Of a stretch of 64,000 bases of DNA, positions 12,074 through 57,609 are shown piece by piece. The DNA comes from Brachyspira hampsonii (lineage in GTDB: Bacteria > Spirochaetota > Brachyspiria > Brachyspirales > Brachyspiraceae), in assembly GCF_002214805.1 (NCBI RefSeq), contig NZ_CP019914.1, forward strand, positions 1,612,001 through 1,676,000, read 5' to 3'. The position numbers and the translations under genes are program-made. How positions within the stretch are numbered: the stretch's first letter is position 1; each line of letters starts with the position of its first letter. Below the pieces are notes generated by a model, which worked only from the letters and a program-made list of their open reading frames with translations, made no database searches and was not told the DNA's origin.

Positions 12074-12102
12074 TAGCTTTAAAATTATGAATTATGGAGC
12101 AA

Positions 12103-12501
12103 ATGATGGAAGAATTAGGATCTATCTATTTTTTAGACGAACTAAATATATTAAATAATGGTTATTTTGCCAAACATGATGATGACTTCGATGATGATTA
12201 TGATGACTATGATGATGATTATGATGATGAAGACGAATATGATGATGAAAGCGATTTTGACGACGATGACTTTGATGATGATGATGATTACGATGATGAC
12301 GACGACTATGATGACGATGATGACTATGATGATTATGACGATGATTATGATGACGACTATGACGATGATATAGATGATTTTGACGATGATTTCGACGACG
12401 ATTTTGATGATGATTTCGATGATGACGATGATGATTATGACGATGATTATGATGATGATTTCGATGATAAAGACGATTATGATGATGATTTTGATGAATA
12501 A
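12103..12501 (+). CDS. Extremely aspartate-rich low-complexity protein
   Basis: After an ordinary N-terminus (MMEELGSIYFLDELN, then NILNNGYFAKH) the protein is ~105 residues of Asp broken by single Tyr, Phe, Glu and rare Ser, Ile, Lys, in units such as DDDYDD and DDDFDD. It must be intensely acidic and probably disordered. It could bind Ca2+ or other cations, or nucleic-acid-binding partners, but function is unknown. An ATG at 12094 is in frame, but GGAG at 12096-12099 lies inside that start and serves the ATGs at 12103 and 12106. It has its own promoter and a hairpin after the stop. The DNA is a near-continuous GAT/GAC repeat and could change length. Confidence 0.75.
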   Translation: MMEELGSIYFLDELNILNNGYFAKHDDDFDDDYDDYDDDYDDEDEYDDESDFDDDDFDDDDDYDDDDDYDDDDDYDDYDDDYDDDYDDDIDDFDDDFDDDFDDDFDDDDDDYDDDYDDDFDDKDDYDDDFDE

Positions 12502-12521
12502 TTAATTGTTAATTTATAATT

Positions 12522-12552
12522 AAAGCAATACTTCAATAATGAGTATTGCTTT
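12522..12552 (+). terminator. Hairpin between the Asp-rich gene and the zinc-finger-like gene
   Basis: A perfect 11-bp stem AAAGCAATACT / AGTATTGCTTT lies directly after the Asp-rich ORF. The following T-run is short, so termination may be partial. An ATG at 12539 lies inside the hairpin and is unlikely to be a gene start. Confidence 0.6.
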
Positions 12553-12571
12553 ATTATGCAAAAGGCTTAAG

Positions 12572-14235: not shown

Positions 14236-14487
14236 TCCCCACCCTATATACTTATAGTTATAATCTGAAATTTTAACTTTTAATTTCTTTATTATCAAAT
14301 TAGAATTTTTTAGCTGCCCACCCTAGTTAAATAATAATAAATAAAAATCTATTAACCGTGCGTTTAAATATACTCATTATCTAACTAACACTTGGGCGGG
14401 CGTGCTTTTATAAATAAAGCAAAATAGAAAAGTAAAATCATTTATTTTTTAATAAGTAAAAAATATAAAAGGGAGGGGTATGTAATT
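14236..14487. repeat. Intergenic repeat mosaic, locus A
   Basis: Contains a reversed G/C-bracketed module (CCCCACCCTATATAC at 14237 to GCTGCCCACCCTAG at ~14324), a lone CCGTGCGTTT end (14357-14366), and a forward module from CTTGGGCGGGCG (14391) to GGGAGGGGTATGTAATT (14487). Same building blocks as loci B-G. Confidence 0.8.
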
Positions 14488-17780: not shown

Positions 17781-17847
17781 AACAGTCAACAGTCAACAGT
17801 CAACAGTCAACAGTCAACAGTCAACAGTCAACAGTCAACAGTCAACA
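17781..17847 (+). repeat. Heptamer tandem repeat (AACAGTC)x9
   Basis: Nine perfect copies of AACAGTC (17781-17843) plus a partial copy. It lies ~210 bases upstream of the Vsp-like gene. A 7-base unit changes phase with each gain or loss, and such tracts are prone to slippage. Confidence 0.95.
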
Positions 17848-18056
17848 CTTTTAATTCCTTATTATAATCAATTATTATACCATATAATAATACTATTTTC
17901 AATAGTAAAGAAATTTACTCAAAATTATATATGCAAAATCAATAAATATTTTTCTAATAAAAAAAATATAAACAGATATATACATACATCATCATCTATC
18001 TTATATAAAAATAATCTAAATAATAATATTTATAAATTTTTTTTAGGAGAAAAAAT

Positions 18057-19225
18057 ATGAAAAAATATTTCTACTGTTATTAATTTGTGCGGCATCAGTT
18101 TTCGGCTACTATGATTCAGATGACTTTATTGATTTTTTAATTCATAGTAATCAGTTTAGAGCAAGGCTTAATGCACTAGGATTCAAACTTGAAGCCAACA
18201 ATGTACATGTTACAGCAGGTTTCAGAAATCCTACAGCAGGTAAAATATTCAATAATATTTATTCATCAACATCATATGAACAAAATAACTATGAAACAGT
18301 AAATTTTATACCTAAAGTAATAGCCGCTATAGGATATAAAATTCCAAATATTTTTGGTATAGGTCTTGGATATGAATTTTCATATAATAGCAGTGAATAT
18401 CAAGTTCATAGTCCAATAATAACATCTGTAGCTTATAATGATAATTTTAGGATATCAATACCTGTGCATATAGGAATAGGTTCAAAAAATAAAGATGGAC
18501 AAATTGGTATATCTACAGCAATTGAAGCTAGATATTATCTTAATTTACCTTTTATGAGTAACATACGACTATATATAAAATATGGAGAGTTCAATGAAAA
18601 AGGTAAATTAGGATCAACTTTTCAAAATTCAAAGAAAAGCTCAATAGGACTTGCCACAAGAATATATTTCAGAGTAGAAACAGAAGATGTTCTTATAGAA
18701 CCTATAATAAGACTTCAATATGATCAGGCATTGGAAAGTGATGTTGATGGCGTAAAAAGTTTTGGAAATTATTATGATATAACTGCATTTAATCAAGGAA
18801 AATATTCTACAGGATTAGATTATAAAGATAATCCAACAGATGATTTAGGATTAATATTTAGACAAGGTTGGGCTATAGAAAATCCATATAGAATTGGCGT
18901 AGCTTTACCAGTTGGTTTTACAGCAGGTAATGATTATTTTAGTGTTTATCTAGAACCTTCTGTATCTTTCAATGTTATAAATGGAAGCAGAATATATAAA
19001 AGTAATCAAAATAACTCTGATTTAGTAACATTAAGACCAGATGCTTTTTACATTGTTGGATATTTTGTATATGGAGAATTTTACTTAAAACCTTCAAAAT
19101 CTCTTGAATGGTATACAGAAATACAAACAGGCGGTACTTCAACTTTAGCATCATTACAAAAATCTAGTTTTTCTGAATTTGTATTAAATGCATCTACAGG
19201 TATCACATGGTATTTTAATTTATAA
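18057..19225 (+). pseudogene. Vsp-like outer-membrane protein, out of frame at codon 3 (phase-off or broken)
   Basis: ATG 18057 has AGGAG 7 bases upstream but is followed by AAAAAA TATTTC and stops after 8 codons (MKKYFYCY). With seven A instead of six the frame becomes MKKIFLLLLICAASVFG, a perfect signal peptide, then YYDSDDFIDFLIHSNQFRAR, and stays open to 19225 (about 389 residues). Between 18065 and 18464 this frame contains no ATG, GTG or TTG, so no sensible internal start exists. The mature N-terminus and beta-rich, Gly/Tyr-rich body resemble the Brachyspira variable surface protein (Vsp) family. Either a poly-A phase switch in the off state, a dead gene, or a homopolymer sequencing error. 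Confidence 0.8.
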
Positions 19226-22637: not shown

Positions 22638-23078
22638 ACTTGGGCGGGTGCTTTAAATTTCTAATTAGGCATTTAAGAAAATTTAAATATTATCTTCTAA
22701 ATGAATCGAAAAATATAAAGGGCGGGGTATGTAAATAATTTTTTAAATTTAATTACACTTGCCCACCCTATAACTTTATAACATAAATCTGGAATTCATA
22801 TCTTTTATTTCTTTGTTATTAAAATTAGACTTTTTAATTCCCACCCTATTTTATTTAAATTTATAATGATTTAAACGCACGCATAATAAAACTTAAAATA
22901 TAAATCAATTAATAATCATCATTTAAATAATATATAAAATCATATTAACCGTGCGTTTAGTAGATTACAAATTTAAATAATGCTTGGGCGGGTGCCTTAA
23001 ATTTCTAATTAAGCATTTAATAAAATTCAAATATAATCTTCTAAATGAATTGAAAAATATAAAGGGCGGGGTATGTAA
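22638..23078. repeat. Intergenic repeat mosaic, locus B
   Basis: Two forward copies of the 97-base G-bracketed module (22638-22734 and 22982-23078, about six mismatches). Between them lie a reversed C-bracketed copy (GCCCACCCTATAAC to TTCCCACCCTATTTT, ~22761-22853) and the inverted-repeat element at 22873-22958. It is the richest locus apart from G. Confidence 0.9.
22873..22958. mobile_element. MITE-like element in locus B (86 bp)
   Basis: Ends AAACGCACG and CGTGCGTTT are perfect inverted repeats around an AT-rich core with no ORF. Confidence 0.65.
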
Positions 23079-23836: not shown

Positions 23837-24044
23837 AATTACATACCGCGCCCCTAGGATTATTATTTAAATCTGCAATCAAAGTTTTTTGTTTTTTTAT
23901 TGTATAATTAGAATTTGTCAGCACCCGCCCAAGTTTTTTTAAATTTTAAAAAATATATAACCGCACGCAGAATAATATTAAAAATATATGCTAATACAAA
24001 ATCATAATTTAAATTATAAATAAAGAACCTTTTACCGTGCGTTG
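23837..24044. repeat. Intergenic repeat mosaic, locus C
   Basis: A reversed module (ATTACATACCGCGCCCC at ~23838 to GCACCCGCCCAAGTTT at 23921-23936) followed by an inverted-repeat element (23959-24044). Confidence 0.85.
23959..24044. mobile_element. MITE-like element in locus C (86 bp)
   Basis: Ends AACCGCACG and CCGTGCGTTG are imperfect inverted repeats, with an AT-rich core and no ORF. Confidence 0.55.
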
Positions 24045-27306: not shown

Positions 27307-28122
27307 TTATTTCCAAGTAGGAAGATAAGAACCTAAAAAGTTTTCATTATAAACTTTTTCTACTATATCAGATTGATAAGTTTCTACAACTTTTTTGTAT
27401 AATTCATTATCTTTATCTTTAGTTCTTGCAGCTATTAAATTAACAAAAGATTTTCCGCTGTAAATAGAAGGGTCATCTTTAAATATATAATCAGAACCCG
27501 GATTCAAGCCGAAATCTATAGCATAGTTTCCGTTTATAACAGCACAAGCAACATCAGGAAGAACACCGTAAATAGCACCGGCATCCATTTCCACTATTTC
27601 AATATTCAAAGGATTTTCTATTATATCGCTTACACTAGGAGTATCTCCTGCCTCAGGTCTTACTTTAATAATTCCTGCAGCCTGAAGAACTTTTAAAGCT
27701 CTTCCTCCATTAGAAGGATCATTAGGTATAGCTATTTTATCTCCGTTTTTTAATTCTTTTACATCTGTAATATTAGTAGAATAAATATTCATAGCAGATA
27801 TATAAGTATCAGCAATAGCAGTTAAATCATATCCTTTATTTGATACTTCATCATTAAAGTATGCATAATGCTGAAAAGCATTCAAATCAATTTCTCCGTC
27901 ATTTAAAGCCTGATTCGGTATAGTATAATCAGAGAAAGAAACTAATTCTACTTTTATTCCTTCTTCAGCTAATTTAGCTACTATAGGATTCCAGATTTGG
28001 TAATCAGACTCTCCGGCAAAACCAACTTTAACCACCTTTTGATCACCAGAAGAATTATTTCCACATGATAATATCATTAATGACAATATAACTGATGATA
28101 TCAATAATAAAAATTTTTTCAT
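27307..28122 (-). CDS. metQ: MetQ/NlpA-type substrate-binding lipoprotein (copy 1)
   Basis: 271 residues. The signal peptide ends in ILSCG (lipobox), so it is a lipid-anchored binding protein of a methionine-type ABC importer. VKVGFAGESDYQIWNPI starts the first lobe, LNDGEIDLNAFQHYAYF is the NlpA family signature, and KNGDKIAIPNDPSNGGRAL lies at the ligand-site hinge. It is the last gene of the metN-metI-ldh-metQ transcript and the best match to canonical MetQ of the four copies, with the standard IAIPNDPSN motif. AAGGAG-type ribosome site present. Confidence 0.9.
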   Translation of the reverse strand: MKKFLLLISSVILSLMILSCGNNSSGDQKVVKVGFAGESDYQIWNPIVAKLAEEGIKVELVSFSDYTIPNQALNDGEIDLNAFQHYAYFNDEVSNKGYDLTAIADTYISAMNIYSTNITDVKELKNGDKIAIPNDPSNGGRALKVLQAAGIIKVRPEAGDTPSVSDIIENPLNIEIVEMDAGAIYGVLPDVACAVINGNYAIDFGLNPGSDYIFKDDPSIYSGKSFVNLIAARTKDKDNELYKKVVETYQSDIVEKVYNENFLGSYLPTWK

Positions 28123-28200
28123 TTTCGCTCCTTTATTAAATTTTAATGAAATTAGTTTATTTAGATTATATTATTTTTTGAATAATTTCAATAAAAAGTA

Positions 28201-28983
28201 CTAATAATTAATAATAATTCCCTGCAATTTTCCAGATTCAACAAGCTCTTTAATCCTCTTTTTATAAGAATCAGCTATAGTTTTATAAACACTATTATTT
28301 TCATCTTCTAATCTTGCAGCTATTAAATTGATATACATATCAGAATCATATTTACTAGGATCATCATAATATAAAATATTTGCATCCTTAACATCAAAAC
28401 TAAGATTGAAATTAATAAAAGCTCCGTCAACAGATGATATAACATAATAAATATTATTTGCATCTATAGCTTCAAACTCTAATTGCAAATAATTTTCTAT
28501 TATATCATTTGTAGTAAAATGATAATTAATATTATTTTTTTTCATCAATTTTATTATACCAATAGATTCCAATATTTTTAAAGCTCTTGAGAAATTTACT
28601 TCATCGTTAGCAACTGCTATTTTAGAATGCATCTGTAATTGAGACAAATTAGTTAAATTTTTTGAATACATATTCATAGAAGCTGTAAAAGTTTTATCTA
28701 TTATAGTTAGGTAATAATCATTTTTATTTGTCTCATTAACAAAATAATCATAATTTTGAAAATGATTCAAATCTATATTCCCGCTATTTAATGCCTTATT
28801 TATTACAGAATAATCAGCAAATTGTATTAATTCTAAAATGATATTTTGTTCTTTCATTTCATTGGATACATATTCCCATATATCTATATCAAACTCGCCT
28901 ATATATCCTATCTTTACTATATTTTCTTTTTTAGAATTACAAGAAACAACAAATAATAATAACATAAATAATACTTTTTTCAT
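28201..28983 (-). CDS. MetQ/NlpA-type lipoprotein (copy 2, divergent)
   Basis: 260 residues from ATG 28983. The ATG nine bases earlier (28992) overlaps the AGGATG ribosome site, so I prefer the shorter form. Lipobox FVVSC. The family core is kept (IVKIGYIGEFDIDIWEYV, LNSGNIDLNHFQNYDYF), but the hinge motif reads KIAVANDEVNFSRALKIL instead of the usual PNDPSN form, and the C-terminal half has diverged. It is most like copy 3. Such changes sit near the ligand site, so its ligand may not be methionine. Confidence 0.8.
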   Translation of the reverse strand: MKKVLFMLLLFVVSCNSKKENIVKIGYIGEFDIDIWEYVSNEMKEQNIILELIQFADYSVINKALNSGNIDLNHFQNYDYFVNETNKNDYYLTIIDKTFTASMNMYSKNLTNLSQLQMHSKIAVANDEVNFSRALKILESIGIIKLMKKNNINYHFTTNDIIENYLQLEFEAIDANNIYYVISSVDGAFINFNLSFDVKDANILYYDDPSKYDSDMYINLIAARLEDENNSVYKTIADSYKKRIKELVESGKLQGIIINY

Positions 28984-29003
28984 TCTATACATCCTAATAA
29001 TTA

Positions 29004-29792
29004 TTAATCAATCATAATAAAACCATTTAATATATTTCCTTCTATCTTTTTTCTCATTTTCTGCCTGTAGCTTTCTGTTATAAACTTGTAAAGATTATAA
29101 TCTTTATCTTTTTCCCGGCATACAATCAAATTGGCATAAGACATCATACCGCGATGTGAATATTTAGATACATCATCATAATATATAATTTTATAATCTG
29201 TATGACCTGAAATAAAACCATAATTTATGACTGCCGCATCTAATTTATCCAGATTATAATAAATGATATTTGCATCCATAGGAATAAATTGAATATTTAA
29301 ATTATTTTCTGTAATATTATATATTTTATAAAATTTTTTATCAGACCTTTCAAGATTAATAATATTTGCCGCTCTTAATATCTGCAATGCTCTTGATAAA
29401 TTTACTTCATCATCAGGAACAGCTATTTTAGCATTCGATGATATTTGATTTATATTTGTAAGAAACTTTGAATATATATTCATAGGAGCAACAAAAGTCC
29501 TTCCCATAACATAAAGATCATAATTATATTTATTAGTTTCATTAACAAAATAAATATAATTTTGAAAAGAATTCAAATCTATATCGCCATCATCCAACGT
29601 CTTATTCAAAATATCATAATCTTCAAAATATATAAGTTCCAATCTAGCATTCTCTATCTTTAACTCTTCATCTATTTGCATCCATATATCATAATCAAAT
29701 TCACCAATATGACCTACTTTTACAACTTCAGTATTAGAATCTTCACAGGAAATTATATTTATTAATAAAAAAAAATTTAATAAATATTTCAT
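29004..29792 (-). CDS. MetQ/NlpA-type lipoprotein (copy 3, divergent)
   Basis: 262 residues with lipobox NIISC. VVKVGHIGEFDYDIWMQI and LDDGDIDLNSFQNYIYF match the family. The hinge motif KIAVPDDEVNLSRALQIL resembles copy 2. Both carry FVNETNKYNY-like sequence, so copies 2 and 3 form a sub-pair distinct from copies 1 and 4. Only 11 bases separate it from copy 2's ORF region. Function is inferred as a binding protein feeding the MetNI transporter encoded upstream in the operon. Confidence 0.8.
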   Translation of the reverse strand: MKYLLNFFLLINIISCEDSNTEVVKVGHIGEFDYDIWMQIDEELKIENARLELIYFEDYDILNKTLDDGDIDLNSFQNYIYFVNETNKYNYDLYVMGRTFVAPMNIYSKFLTNINQISSNAKIAVPDDEVNLSRALQILRAANIINLERSDKKFYKIYNITENNLNIQFIPMDANIIYYNLDKLDAAVINYGFISGHTDYKIIYYDDVSKYSHRGMMSYANLIVCREKDKDYNLYKFITESYRQKMRKKIEGNILNGFIMID

Positions 29793-29819
29793 ATTTCCTC
29801 CAAACTAAAAATTATAAAA

Positions 29820-30626
29820 TCACCAAACTGCTATATATATGCCGTTAAAATTTTTATTGTATATCTCTTTAACTTCATCAGACTGATATGCTTTTACTAT
29901 TTTTTTATATATTTCACTATCTTTATCTTTTGTCCTTACAGCTATAATATTTACATAATTTTTATCTGCATAGTTGCTAGGATTATCTTTAAATATAGAG
30001 TCCGTATAAGGATCAAGTCCGAAACTTAAAGCAAAATTACTGTTAATAACAGCACATGCTATATCCGGAAGCAAACTATATATATTTGCAGCATTAACTT
30101 CAATTATATCCAAATATAATTTATTTTCTTCTATATCATTTATAGTAGGATTCTGCTTGTATATATATTTTAATTTTATAATACCAGCTGCTTCTAATAC
30201 TTTTAAAGCTCTGCCTCTATTAGAATCATCATCTGGTATAGCTATTTTATCATATTCCTTAATCTGATTAATATTTGTTATATTATAGGAATATATATTC
30301 ATAGCGGCAATACATGTATCCGCTATAGCAGTCAATTCATATCCTTTATCTTCTAACTCCTGATTAAAAAAAGCATAATGCTGAAAATTATTTAAATCAA
30401 TTTTTCCTTCATTCAAGTCTTTATTAGGAGAAAAGTAATCAATATAAGAAATTAATTCTATTTCTATATTATCATTAGAAACTTTTTTCATAACCTCCTG
30501 CCAAATAACTTTATCAGATTCTCCTATATATCCCACTTTTACAATATTAGCATTCTTATCTGCATTAGAACATGAAAAAGAAAATATAAAAGTAAAAAGT
30601 AAAATTATTTTTTTCATATTTTTCAT
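29820..30626 (-). CDS. MetQ/NlpA-type substrate-binding lipoprotein (copy 4)
   Basis: 268 residues with lipobox SFSCS. Close to copy 1 in plan: IVKVGYIGESDKVIWQEV, LNEGKIDLNNFQHYAFF, DKIAIPDDDSNRGRALKV, and LPDIACAVINSNFALSFGLD (also almost intact in copy 1). It is the first metQ copy after the dehydrogenase gene. The start is ATG 30626 or the in-frame ATG 30617, and neither has a strong ribosome site. Probably a methionine or related amino-acid binding protein. Confidence 0.85.
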   Translation of the reverse strand: MKNMKKIILLFTFIFSFSCSNADKNANIVKVGYIGESDKVIWQEVMKKVSNDNIEIELISYIDYFSPNKDLNEGKIDLNNFQHYAFFNQELEDKGYELTAIADTCIAAMNIYSYNITNINQIKEYDKIAIPDDDSNRGRALKVLEAAGIIKLKYIYKQNPTINDIEENKLYLDIIEVNAANIYSLLPDIACAVINSNFALSFGLDPYTDSIFKDNPSNYADKNYVNIIAVRTKDKDSEIYKKIVKAYQSDEVKEIYNKNFNGIYIAVW

Positions 30627-34157: not shown

Positions 34158-34365
34158 TTACATTCCCCGCCCTTTTATATTTTCTGCTTAACTTAAAATT
34201 AAGAATTTAAATTTATTTTATTGCTTAATAAGAAATTACAGCACCCGCCCAAGTTTTATTTATTTTTTTAGCATTAATTAACGCATGTTAAAATAAAATT
34301 CTATTTTTTAGTAAAATTTGAATTAGAGATTATTATTGTTCATTGTATTTATACTGCATGCGTTT
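34158..34365. repeat. Intergenic repeat mosaic, locus D
   Basis: A reversed module (TTACATTCCCCGCCCTTTTA at 34158 to GCACCCGCCCAAGTTTTA at ~34257) followed by an inverted-repeat element at 34280-34365. Same order as loci C and E. Confidence 0.85.
34280..34365. mobile_element. MITE-like element in locus D (86 bp)
   Basis: Ends AACGCATG and CATGCGTTT are perfect 8-base inverted repeats. The terminal sequence differs from other copies (GCATG instead of GCACG) on both sides, so the two ends changed together. Confidence 0.6.
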
Positions 34366-38817: not shown

Positions 38818-39019
38818 CACACACCCCGCCCTTTTATATTTTTTGCCTAAATTTAAAATTAAAGCTTTACTAATATTCAGCACTCATATTACAAAAAGCA
38901 TGCTCGCCCTAGATTTAATTATATTTTTAATACAATTCACGCACGGTAAAAATATCTTTTAATATAATCAAAATTATATCATTAATAAATTTAAATTATT
39001 TGCTTAGTTTACCGTGCGT
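38818..39019. repeat. Intergenic repeat mosaic, locus E
   Basis: A reversed module, CACCCCGCCCTTTTATA (38822) to GCTCGCCCTAGATTT (~38902-38916, degenerate), then the inverted-repeat element 38939-39019. Confidence 0.8.
38939..39019. mobile_element. MITE-like element in locus E (81 bp)
   Basis: Perfect 12-base terminal inverted repeats: ACGCACGGTAAA and TTTACCGTGCGT. AT-rich core, no ORF. The best preserved copy in the window. Confidence 0.75.
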
Positions 39020-41026: not shown

Positions 41027-41239
41027 ACTTGGGTGGGTAATTATAGATTCTAATTTAGCAATAAAAAAATTAAAAGTTTTAATCCAGATTTAAATTATAA
41101 AACTAAAGGGTGGGCATGAAAATAAAGCTTTAAAATTTAATTACATACCCCGCCCTTTTTTCCATAAAAACTATTCAGAAATTTCTGCTTATTATTTTTT
41201 ATATACTAATGCTGCAATAATAAAACCCGCCCAAGTTTT
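41027..41239. repeat. Intergenic repeat mosaic, locus F (complete inverted pair)
   Basis: A forward module (ACTTGGGTGGGTAAT to AAAGGGTGGGCATG) and a reversed one (CATACCCCGCCCTTTT to ACCCGCCCAAGTTTTG) are placed head to head. The outer ends ACTTGGGTGGGT / ACCCGCCCAAGT are inverted repeats, so ~210 bases could fold as one long hairpin. Confidence 0.85.
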
Positions 41240-56915: not shown

Positions 56916-57176
56916 TTATATATTTTTTAAATTTAAAAAAAACTTGGGTAGGCAGCTAATAAACTCTAATCAGATTATAAAAAACTGAAAGTTATCATAA
57001 TAATAGAACTTTAAATATAAAGGGCGGGCAAATGTAATTAAGTTTTAAAACTTTATTATCACTACCCCTCCCTCTATACTTTTTAATATTTCAAGATATT
57101 TTTATACTGTTTTTCTTTAAAACTTTTTCTGTAATTACAGCACCCACCCAAACTAATTTAAATTTGCAGTCTATTC

Positions 57177-57262
57177 ACCGCACGGTAAACAAAATTCTTA
57201 AATATAAATCGATTAACAATACAATTTTAATCATGTTTAAAAATAAAATCTTGCGTGCGTTG
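57177..57262. mobile_element. MITE-like element 1 in locus G (86 bp)
   Basis: Begins ACCGCACGGTAAAC and ends CTTGCGTGCGTTG. Imperfect inverted ends, AT-rich core. Confidence 0.55.
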
Positions 57263-57527
57263 TAAAGATTAAAAACCTAATTAACACTTGGGTGGGCATT
57301 AATAAGTTAGAGAAAAATAGAAAGACAAATAAAATATTAATTTCAAAATAAAACAATAAGCCTATAGGGTGGGAATTAGAATAAAGCCAAAAATTTAAAA
57401 ACTTTTTCTCGCTCCCCACCCTTTAGAAATTATTACTTCAGTTTGAATTTTAGCTTTGTATTATTTTGTTATTTAATTTACACCTATTAGCACCCGCCCA
57501 AGTTTTATTTAAATTTATAGCTTATAT

Positions 57528-57609
57528 ACCGCACGATAGATGGTATTATATTTTTAATCAATTTATAACTAAAGTAAAAATTAAATATTATAATCTTCTT
57601 ACCGTGCGT
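57528..57609. mobile_element. MITE-like element 2 in locus G (82 bp)
   Basis: Begins ACCGCACGATAG and ends CTTACCGTGCGT. Imperfect inverted ends, AT-rich core. Confidence 0.55.

Follow-up and report, generated by a model that had tools for sequence, protein, structure and literature searches.

Intergenic arrays of paired G/C-rich boxes in Brachyspira: candidate docking sites for a DNA-binding factor

The short element with CGCACG inverted ends that recurs in Brachyspira intergenic DNA, here called Y, is one module of a larger three-module array and not a stand-alone element of 80 bp. We propose, with about even confidence, that these arrays are fixed-geometry docking sites for a putative sequence-specific DNA-binding factor of Brachyspira. 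Docking sites are favored over a jumping element because the boxes and their spacings are kept while the sequence between them drifts. The DNA analyzed, hereafter the window, is a stretch of 64,000 nucleotides (positions 1,612,001–1,676,000) of a single-contig Brachyspira genome of 3.19 Mb, with a G+C content of 26%. One window protein has its best relatives in B. hampsonii, B. alvinipulli, B. innocens and B. pilosicoli.

The window reads ACGCACGGTAAA at 38939–38950 and its exact reverse complement at 39008–39019, so that the perfect 12-base inverted ends reported in a preliminary description of this DNA can be read directly from the sequence. The Y module they enclose (CGCACGGT ... ACCGTGCG; 38940..39018, 79 bp core, strand unassigned) is orthologous in B. 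hampsonii 30446 and in a Brachyspira MAG, the latter carrying one additional X module at this site. Five further copies lie where that description had placed them (core starts 22876/22950, 23962/24036, 34282/34357, 57179/57254 and 57530/57603), and its view of a repeat family of almost constant length was borne out, 103 of 107 Y copies measuring 79–81 bp. A degenerate copy at 14.3 kb had escaped it, as had the GGGYGGG/CCCRCCC box pairs that flank every Y copy at ~37 bp. Genome-wide, the pattern CGCAC-N58..85-GTGCG has 123 matches and the reversed control pattern 0; the frequency of the Y element is not due to chance.

The modules follow a fixed cyclic order, seen at ~90 loci: Y, 36 bp, X', 42 bp, X, 37 bp, and then Y again, with a period of ~345 bp. 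Y can be written CGCACG-74-CGTGCG and X' as CTTGGGYGGG-78-AGGGYGGG, with GGGYGGG core boxes 77–78 bp apart, while X is the reverse complement of X'. Six kinds of short G/C-rich box recur in a genome of 74% A+T, and the spacing series through one cycle is 74-36-78-42-78-37 bp. Y modules have terminal inverted repeats; X modules have direct boxes, without inverted ends. Arrays contain one to eight modules and may end in any of the three linkers, the modules rarely being cut. Solitary modules occur, and therefore no module depends on its neighbors. The genome holds at least 117 X + X' pairs (control 1) and at least 123 Y pairs (control 0); the analysis covered pattern searches and the sequence around arrays, with copy numbers taken from whole pattern counts and statistics on position from lists that are either complete or named as partial. 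In an unselected test, the place where the spacing predicts a Y box next to an X module held exact CGCACG in 97 of 135 cases, and both Y boxes were exact in 88, with none within 2 mismatches in the displaced control. Module length (86–88 bp in most X copies) varies by only 1–2 bp although the A/T interiors are almost randomized between copies. Interiors of unrelated copies are 48–53% identical, compared with 39% for shuffles, and units within one array can be 88% identical.

At the 38940 site, the neighboring X module lies on the minus strand (38825..38909), with CCCGCCC at 38825 and a degenerate second box, CTCGCCC, at 38903. The array at 14238..14477 (strand unassigned) consists of X, a single Y box at 14356 and X', whereas relatives keep the full Y at this 14.2 kb array. 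On the plus strand, the array at 22639..23070 runs X' (22642/22720), X (22762/22840), Y (22876–22955) and X' (22986/23064), equivalent to one 344-bp period plus one module; genome G023 retains only X'. Strand is unassigned for the remaining arrays. At 23848..24041, an X with a degenerate outer box precedes Y (23962–24041); at 34166..34362, X (34166/34244) precedes a variant Y (34282–34362); and at 41028..41235, X' (41031/41108) and X (41149/41226) stand without Y. The array at 56942..57608 has six modules here versus eight in B. hampsonii (G003). Its first half is X' (outer box degenerate at ~56945; inner box 57022), X (57066/57143) and Y (57179–57259), and its second half X' (57290/57367), X (57415/57493) and Y (57530–57608).

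Two end variants of Y were found. The copy at 34280 had been described as having changed at both ends together, with pairing preserved. It does carry CGCATG/CATGCG ends, and a second copy with these ends lies at ~1.597 Mb of the source genome. However, pairing is not strictly kept, because relatives share the left end whereas their right end, by drift, reads TGCATGCA or GCATACG. Copies with the ends CACGCG...CGCGTG occur at loci L013, L021, L025, L089, L091 and L094, where the neighboring X modules in several cases have (A)TGCTTTT following their first box; judged by sequence, this type is a second, coherent subfamily.

The window also contains repeats of other kinds. Dense 9/12-bp tandem repeats occupy 12143–12553, within a 135-aa ORF (12094–12501) with no Pfam match, and a tandem 7-bp unit, AACAGTC, lies at 17781–17854, upstream of a variable surface protein gene (PF05540, ORF 18464–19225). 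Four tandem genes at 27307–30626, of which the first two match NlpA lipoproteins, have internal DNA repeats between them (repeats D2/D3) and adjoin an ABC transporter with a NIL domain and its permease.

Within the arrays, facing b boxes are unlike each other. A C-type box (AAAGGGCGGGGTATGTAA) stood opposite a T-type box (GGGTGGGCAAGTG) in 37 of the 39 cases that could be scored C/T (37:2, p = 3e-9), and a perfect palindrome at the X'-X dyad was rejected, as the facing boxes anti-match. In most Y copies one end is CGCACGCAG and the opposite end CGCACGGTT, and these oriented ends are non-complementary beyond a 6-bp core. Module polarity was consistent at 66 of 87 scorable junctions. Judged by the facing boxes, the Y ends and the module polarity, the structure therefore has a direction; it is no palindrome, and this speaks against a role as hairpin or cruciform. 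Linkers between facing b boxes come in two sizes, 39–44 and 46–49 bp, and the array as a whole therefore need not keep strict helical phase.

These results bear on whether the arrays are transcribed 3'-end structures (terminators, mRNA stabilizers or a family of non-coding RNAs), with Y forming a stem-loop and X'-X a long hairpin. Such an origin would account for a preference for convergent gaps (below), for the complementary Y ends, which give Y a fold z-score of −3.4 versus shuffles, and for the few copies whose two ends changed in concert. However, the fold signal comes from the end boxes only: the Y interior alone scored −0.2, and no antiparallel covariation was found in Y interiors. X alone does not fold (+0.6/−0.3), and since neither X nor the Y interior folds better than its shuffles, an RNA structure was rejected for both. 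The systematic mismatch of facing b boxes, the failure of Y ends to pair past their core and the absence of any Rfam match in the window also speak against it, and we regard this explanation as quite unlikely.

The arrays are intergenic and unevenly placed. By simple ORF calls, 235 of 242 modules were intergenic, and in 464 kb of uninterrupted sequence (the window and G009) box density was 4.2/kb in intergenic versus 0.03/kb in coding DNA. In the same two sequences, arrays were present in 18 of 41 convergent but 10 of 59 divergent gaps, and in 26% of co-directional gaps. With the origin taken as the position of dnaA, 48 of 56 X' modules on the plus strand of the source genome (86%) lay in the half of the chromosome distal to the origin. 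The origin-distal fraction of Y was 81% in G009 and 98% in G017, and G007 had no origin-distal bias among the matches listed; the preference thus held in three of the four complete genomes checked, array positions in related genomes not being independent. X' with strict boxes was found in 23 of 26 Brachyspira genomes, with 0 in controls, and was absent by this strict pattern from G006, G010 and G021. A 161-bp query gave no strong match outside Brachyspira.

Between 0.6 and 2.76 Mb of the source genome, array polarity was biased to plus on the left and to minus on the right of ~1.636 Mb (34:13 versus 12:22, permutation p 0.011). The break, near 24 kb of the window, lies near the peak of the window's cumulative GC skew (~28 kb) and is possibly the replication terminus. 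No dif site was found in the window, and the terminus could not be placed by GC skew at sampled loci. Strict replichore polarity was rejected, as there is only a bias and as taking the dnaA antipode (1.36 Mb) as the break gives no difference.

Arrays were orthologous in 8 of 8 comparable gaps with B. hampsonii and in 7–8 of 8 with a third species. Among 31 gaps compared with a fourth species (G009), 24 had arrays in both genomes, five only in the source genome and one only in G009, with one partial. Across four species, arrays occupy orthologous positions, and what sets them apart is the gain or loss of whole modules. Alignment to G009 of five candidate sites, empty or altered, revealed no intact uninterrupted site and no target duplication; the array differences examined look, from these alignments, like decay or deletion and not like precise empty sites. 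In the G009 gap orthologous to source position 1354041, near-identical tandem repeats (TTATTGCTAGCGATAAAGTCGCTGGCAAATAGCTGACAACTTC...) occur instead of an array.

Box G/C bases changed in 5.4% (G003) and 3.2% (G023) of cases, compared with 26% for other array G/C bases and 17–19% for other intergenic G/C bases in the same comparisons. By our own estimate, having defined the boxes from the window sequence could bias this contrast by no more than a factor of about two. Indel events numbered ~8/kb in arrays versus 16–19/kb in other intergenic DNA. Array interiors accumulated substitutions faster than any other class, whereas box G/C bases were among the slowest. Because of the contrasts between box and interior and between indel rates, we infer that the boxes and the module spacing are under selection.

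These contrasts weigh heavily on the idea of a neutral tandem satellite, in which old, functionless 345-bp repeats expand and contract by recombination. Species do differ in copy number by whole modules or periods, and units within an array can be as similar as noted above. However, neutral repeats should not have boxes that resist change next to the fastest-changing interiors, module lengths that resist indels, or box pairs that persist as solitary modules, and we consider a neutral satellite highly improbable.

The preliminary description had interpreted Y as a MITE- or REP-like element; the repeat family stands, but its MITE or REP nature is largely refuted by the lack of a RAYT, the orthologous positions and the lack of clean empty sites. 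The window contains no transposase, as had been stated (Pfam scans, 49 ORFs). The genome search for a RAYT that had been suggested found no Y1_Tnp gene; this whole-genome transposase search covered only Y1_Tnp, whose profile (PF01797) had matches in 5 of 14 control genomes. The suggested comparison of empty and filled sites yielded no precise empty sites, and copies were at orthologous positions in most comparable gaps. Copies fixed at orthologous positions had been named as evidence against mobility, and this is largely what was found, because positions are orthologous and losses resemble decay or deletion. Non-autonomous mobile elements (MITE or REP/REPIN-like), moved by a transposase acting on CGCACGG ends or on box pairs, would explain the high copy number, the intergenic placement, the inverted Y ends, the near-constant length and the subfamilies with coordinated end changes (CGCATG/CATGCG and CACGCG/CGCGTG), and an ancient spread must have happened at some time. 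On the other hand, X modules have no inverted ends, the boxes stay conserved at their sites as the interiors drift, and selection on Y ends in place is not expected of a decaying MITE. Together with the lack of a transposase in the window, of a RAYT in the genome and of target duplications at the sites aligned, this makes mobile elements an unlikely explanation.

Other bacteria offer several systems for comparison. In Escherichia coli, matS, the site of MatP, is a solitary 13-bp palindrome enriched in the origin-distal chromosome; the Brachyspira sites are likewise short and origin-distally enriched, but form multi-box arrays with fixed spacing. The BOX elements of Streptococcus pneumoniae are modular intergenic repeats with different subunits (boxA/B/C) in fixed order and a predicted RNA structure. 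The Brachyspira arrays share the modularity and the fixed order of different subunits, but are set apart, by description, by a cyclic three-module order and no RNA structure signal. The BIMEs of E. coli and other bacteria, built of REP/PU units, are similar in arrangement, being intergenic and modular, with hundreds of boxes per genome, regular spacing, alternating orientation and variable module number; the Brachyspira arrays, too, are extragenic mosaics with regular spacing and alternating orientation. BIME-2 binds DNA gyrase, BIME-1 spacers bind IHF and REPs bind DNA polymerase I (PMC2817692). However, BIME units are palindromes of 20–40 bp, whereas the Brachyspira modules are box pairs 74–78 bp apart, in three-module cyclic order with heterotypic facing boxes, in a genome without a RAYT, concentrated away from the origin in the majority of genomes examined and confined, as far as tested, to one spirochaete genus. 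The consensus boxes, CGCACG and GGGYGGG, contain no GTAG/CGTC tag and no short palindrome. REPIN-type doublets of 89 bp with inverted ends have been described (PMC2817692; PMC3733652), and these GTAG- and CGTC-tagged palindromes resemble Y in having two inverted ends around a short spacer, as homodimers and heterodimers with coordinated end changes; unlike them, the Brachyspira ends are untagged and not themselves hairpins, and they keep orthologous positions over the long term without a RAYT. Our best reading, by analogy, is that the arrays would work like E. coli BIMEs but belong to neither the REP/BIME nor the MITE families.

Returning to docking sites, short boxes with free A/T filler, spacings near 7 and 3.5–4 helical turns, and a fixed box order are what a protein docking array would look like. 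The putative factor might be a nucleoid protein, or a condensin-type or topoisomerase complex, that would read the boxes in pairs ~seven helical turns apart, while modules would be gained and lost by recombination between repeats. The arrays may then serve to organize the chromosome, or to relax it, where transcription units converge; a plausible task, similar to the one E. coli BIMEs perform, would be to manage supercoils or domains in the gaps between converging genes, here away from the origin. Against docking stand G007, without origin-distal bias among the matches listed, the two length classes of the linker between facing boxes, the solitary modules, and 5 of 31 arrays that are absent or degraded in a related species. 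A broader claim, that genus-wide, selected, origin-distal heterotypic arrays structure the Brachyspira chromosome via a putative multi-site DNA-binding complex, is one we offer only tentatively, as a possible but doubtful extension; here the arrays could mark a terminus domain or act as supercoil sinks between converging genes.

The box-array family is large and found throughout Brachyspira, and apparently has not been described previously. In the literature searched, no paper joined Brachyspira with intergenic repeats or with repetitive, palindromic or intergenic DNA, and repeats of this kind go unmentioned in the passages searched of the genome papers on B. hyodysenteriae and B. pilosicoli. 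Little is known of chromosome organization in spirochaetes, and the arrays represent a dense and seemingly selected system of cis-elements in the Brachyspira chromosome. Paired boxes seven turns apart, together with unlike facing boxes, predict a specific multi-site protein complex, and the differences in module number between species suggest natural 345-bp typing markers.
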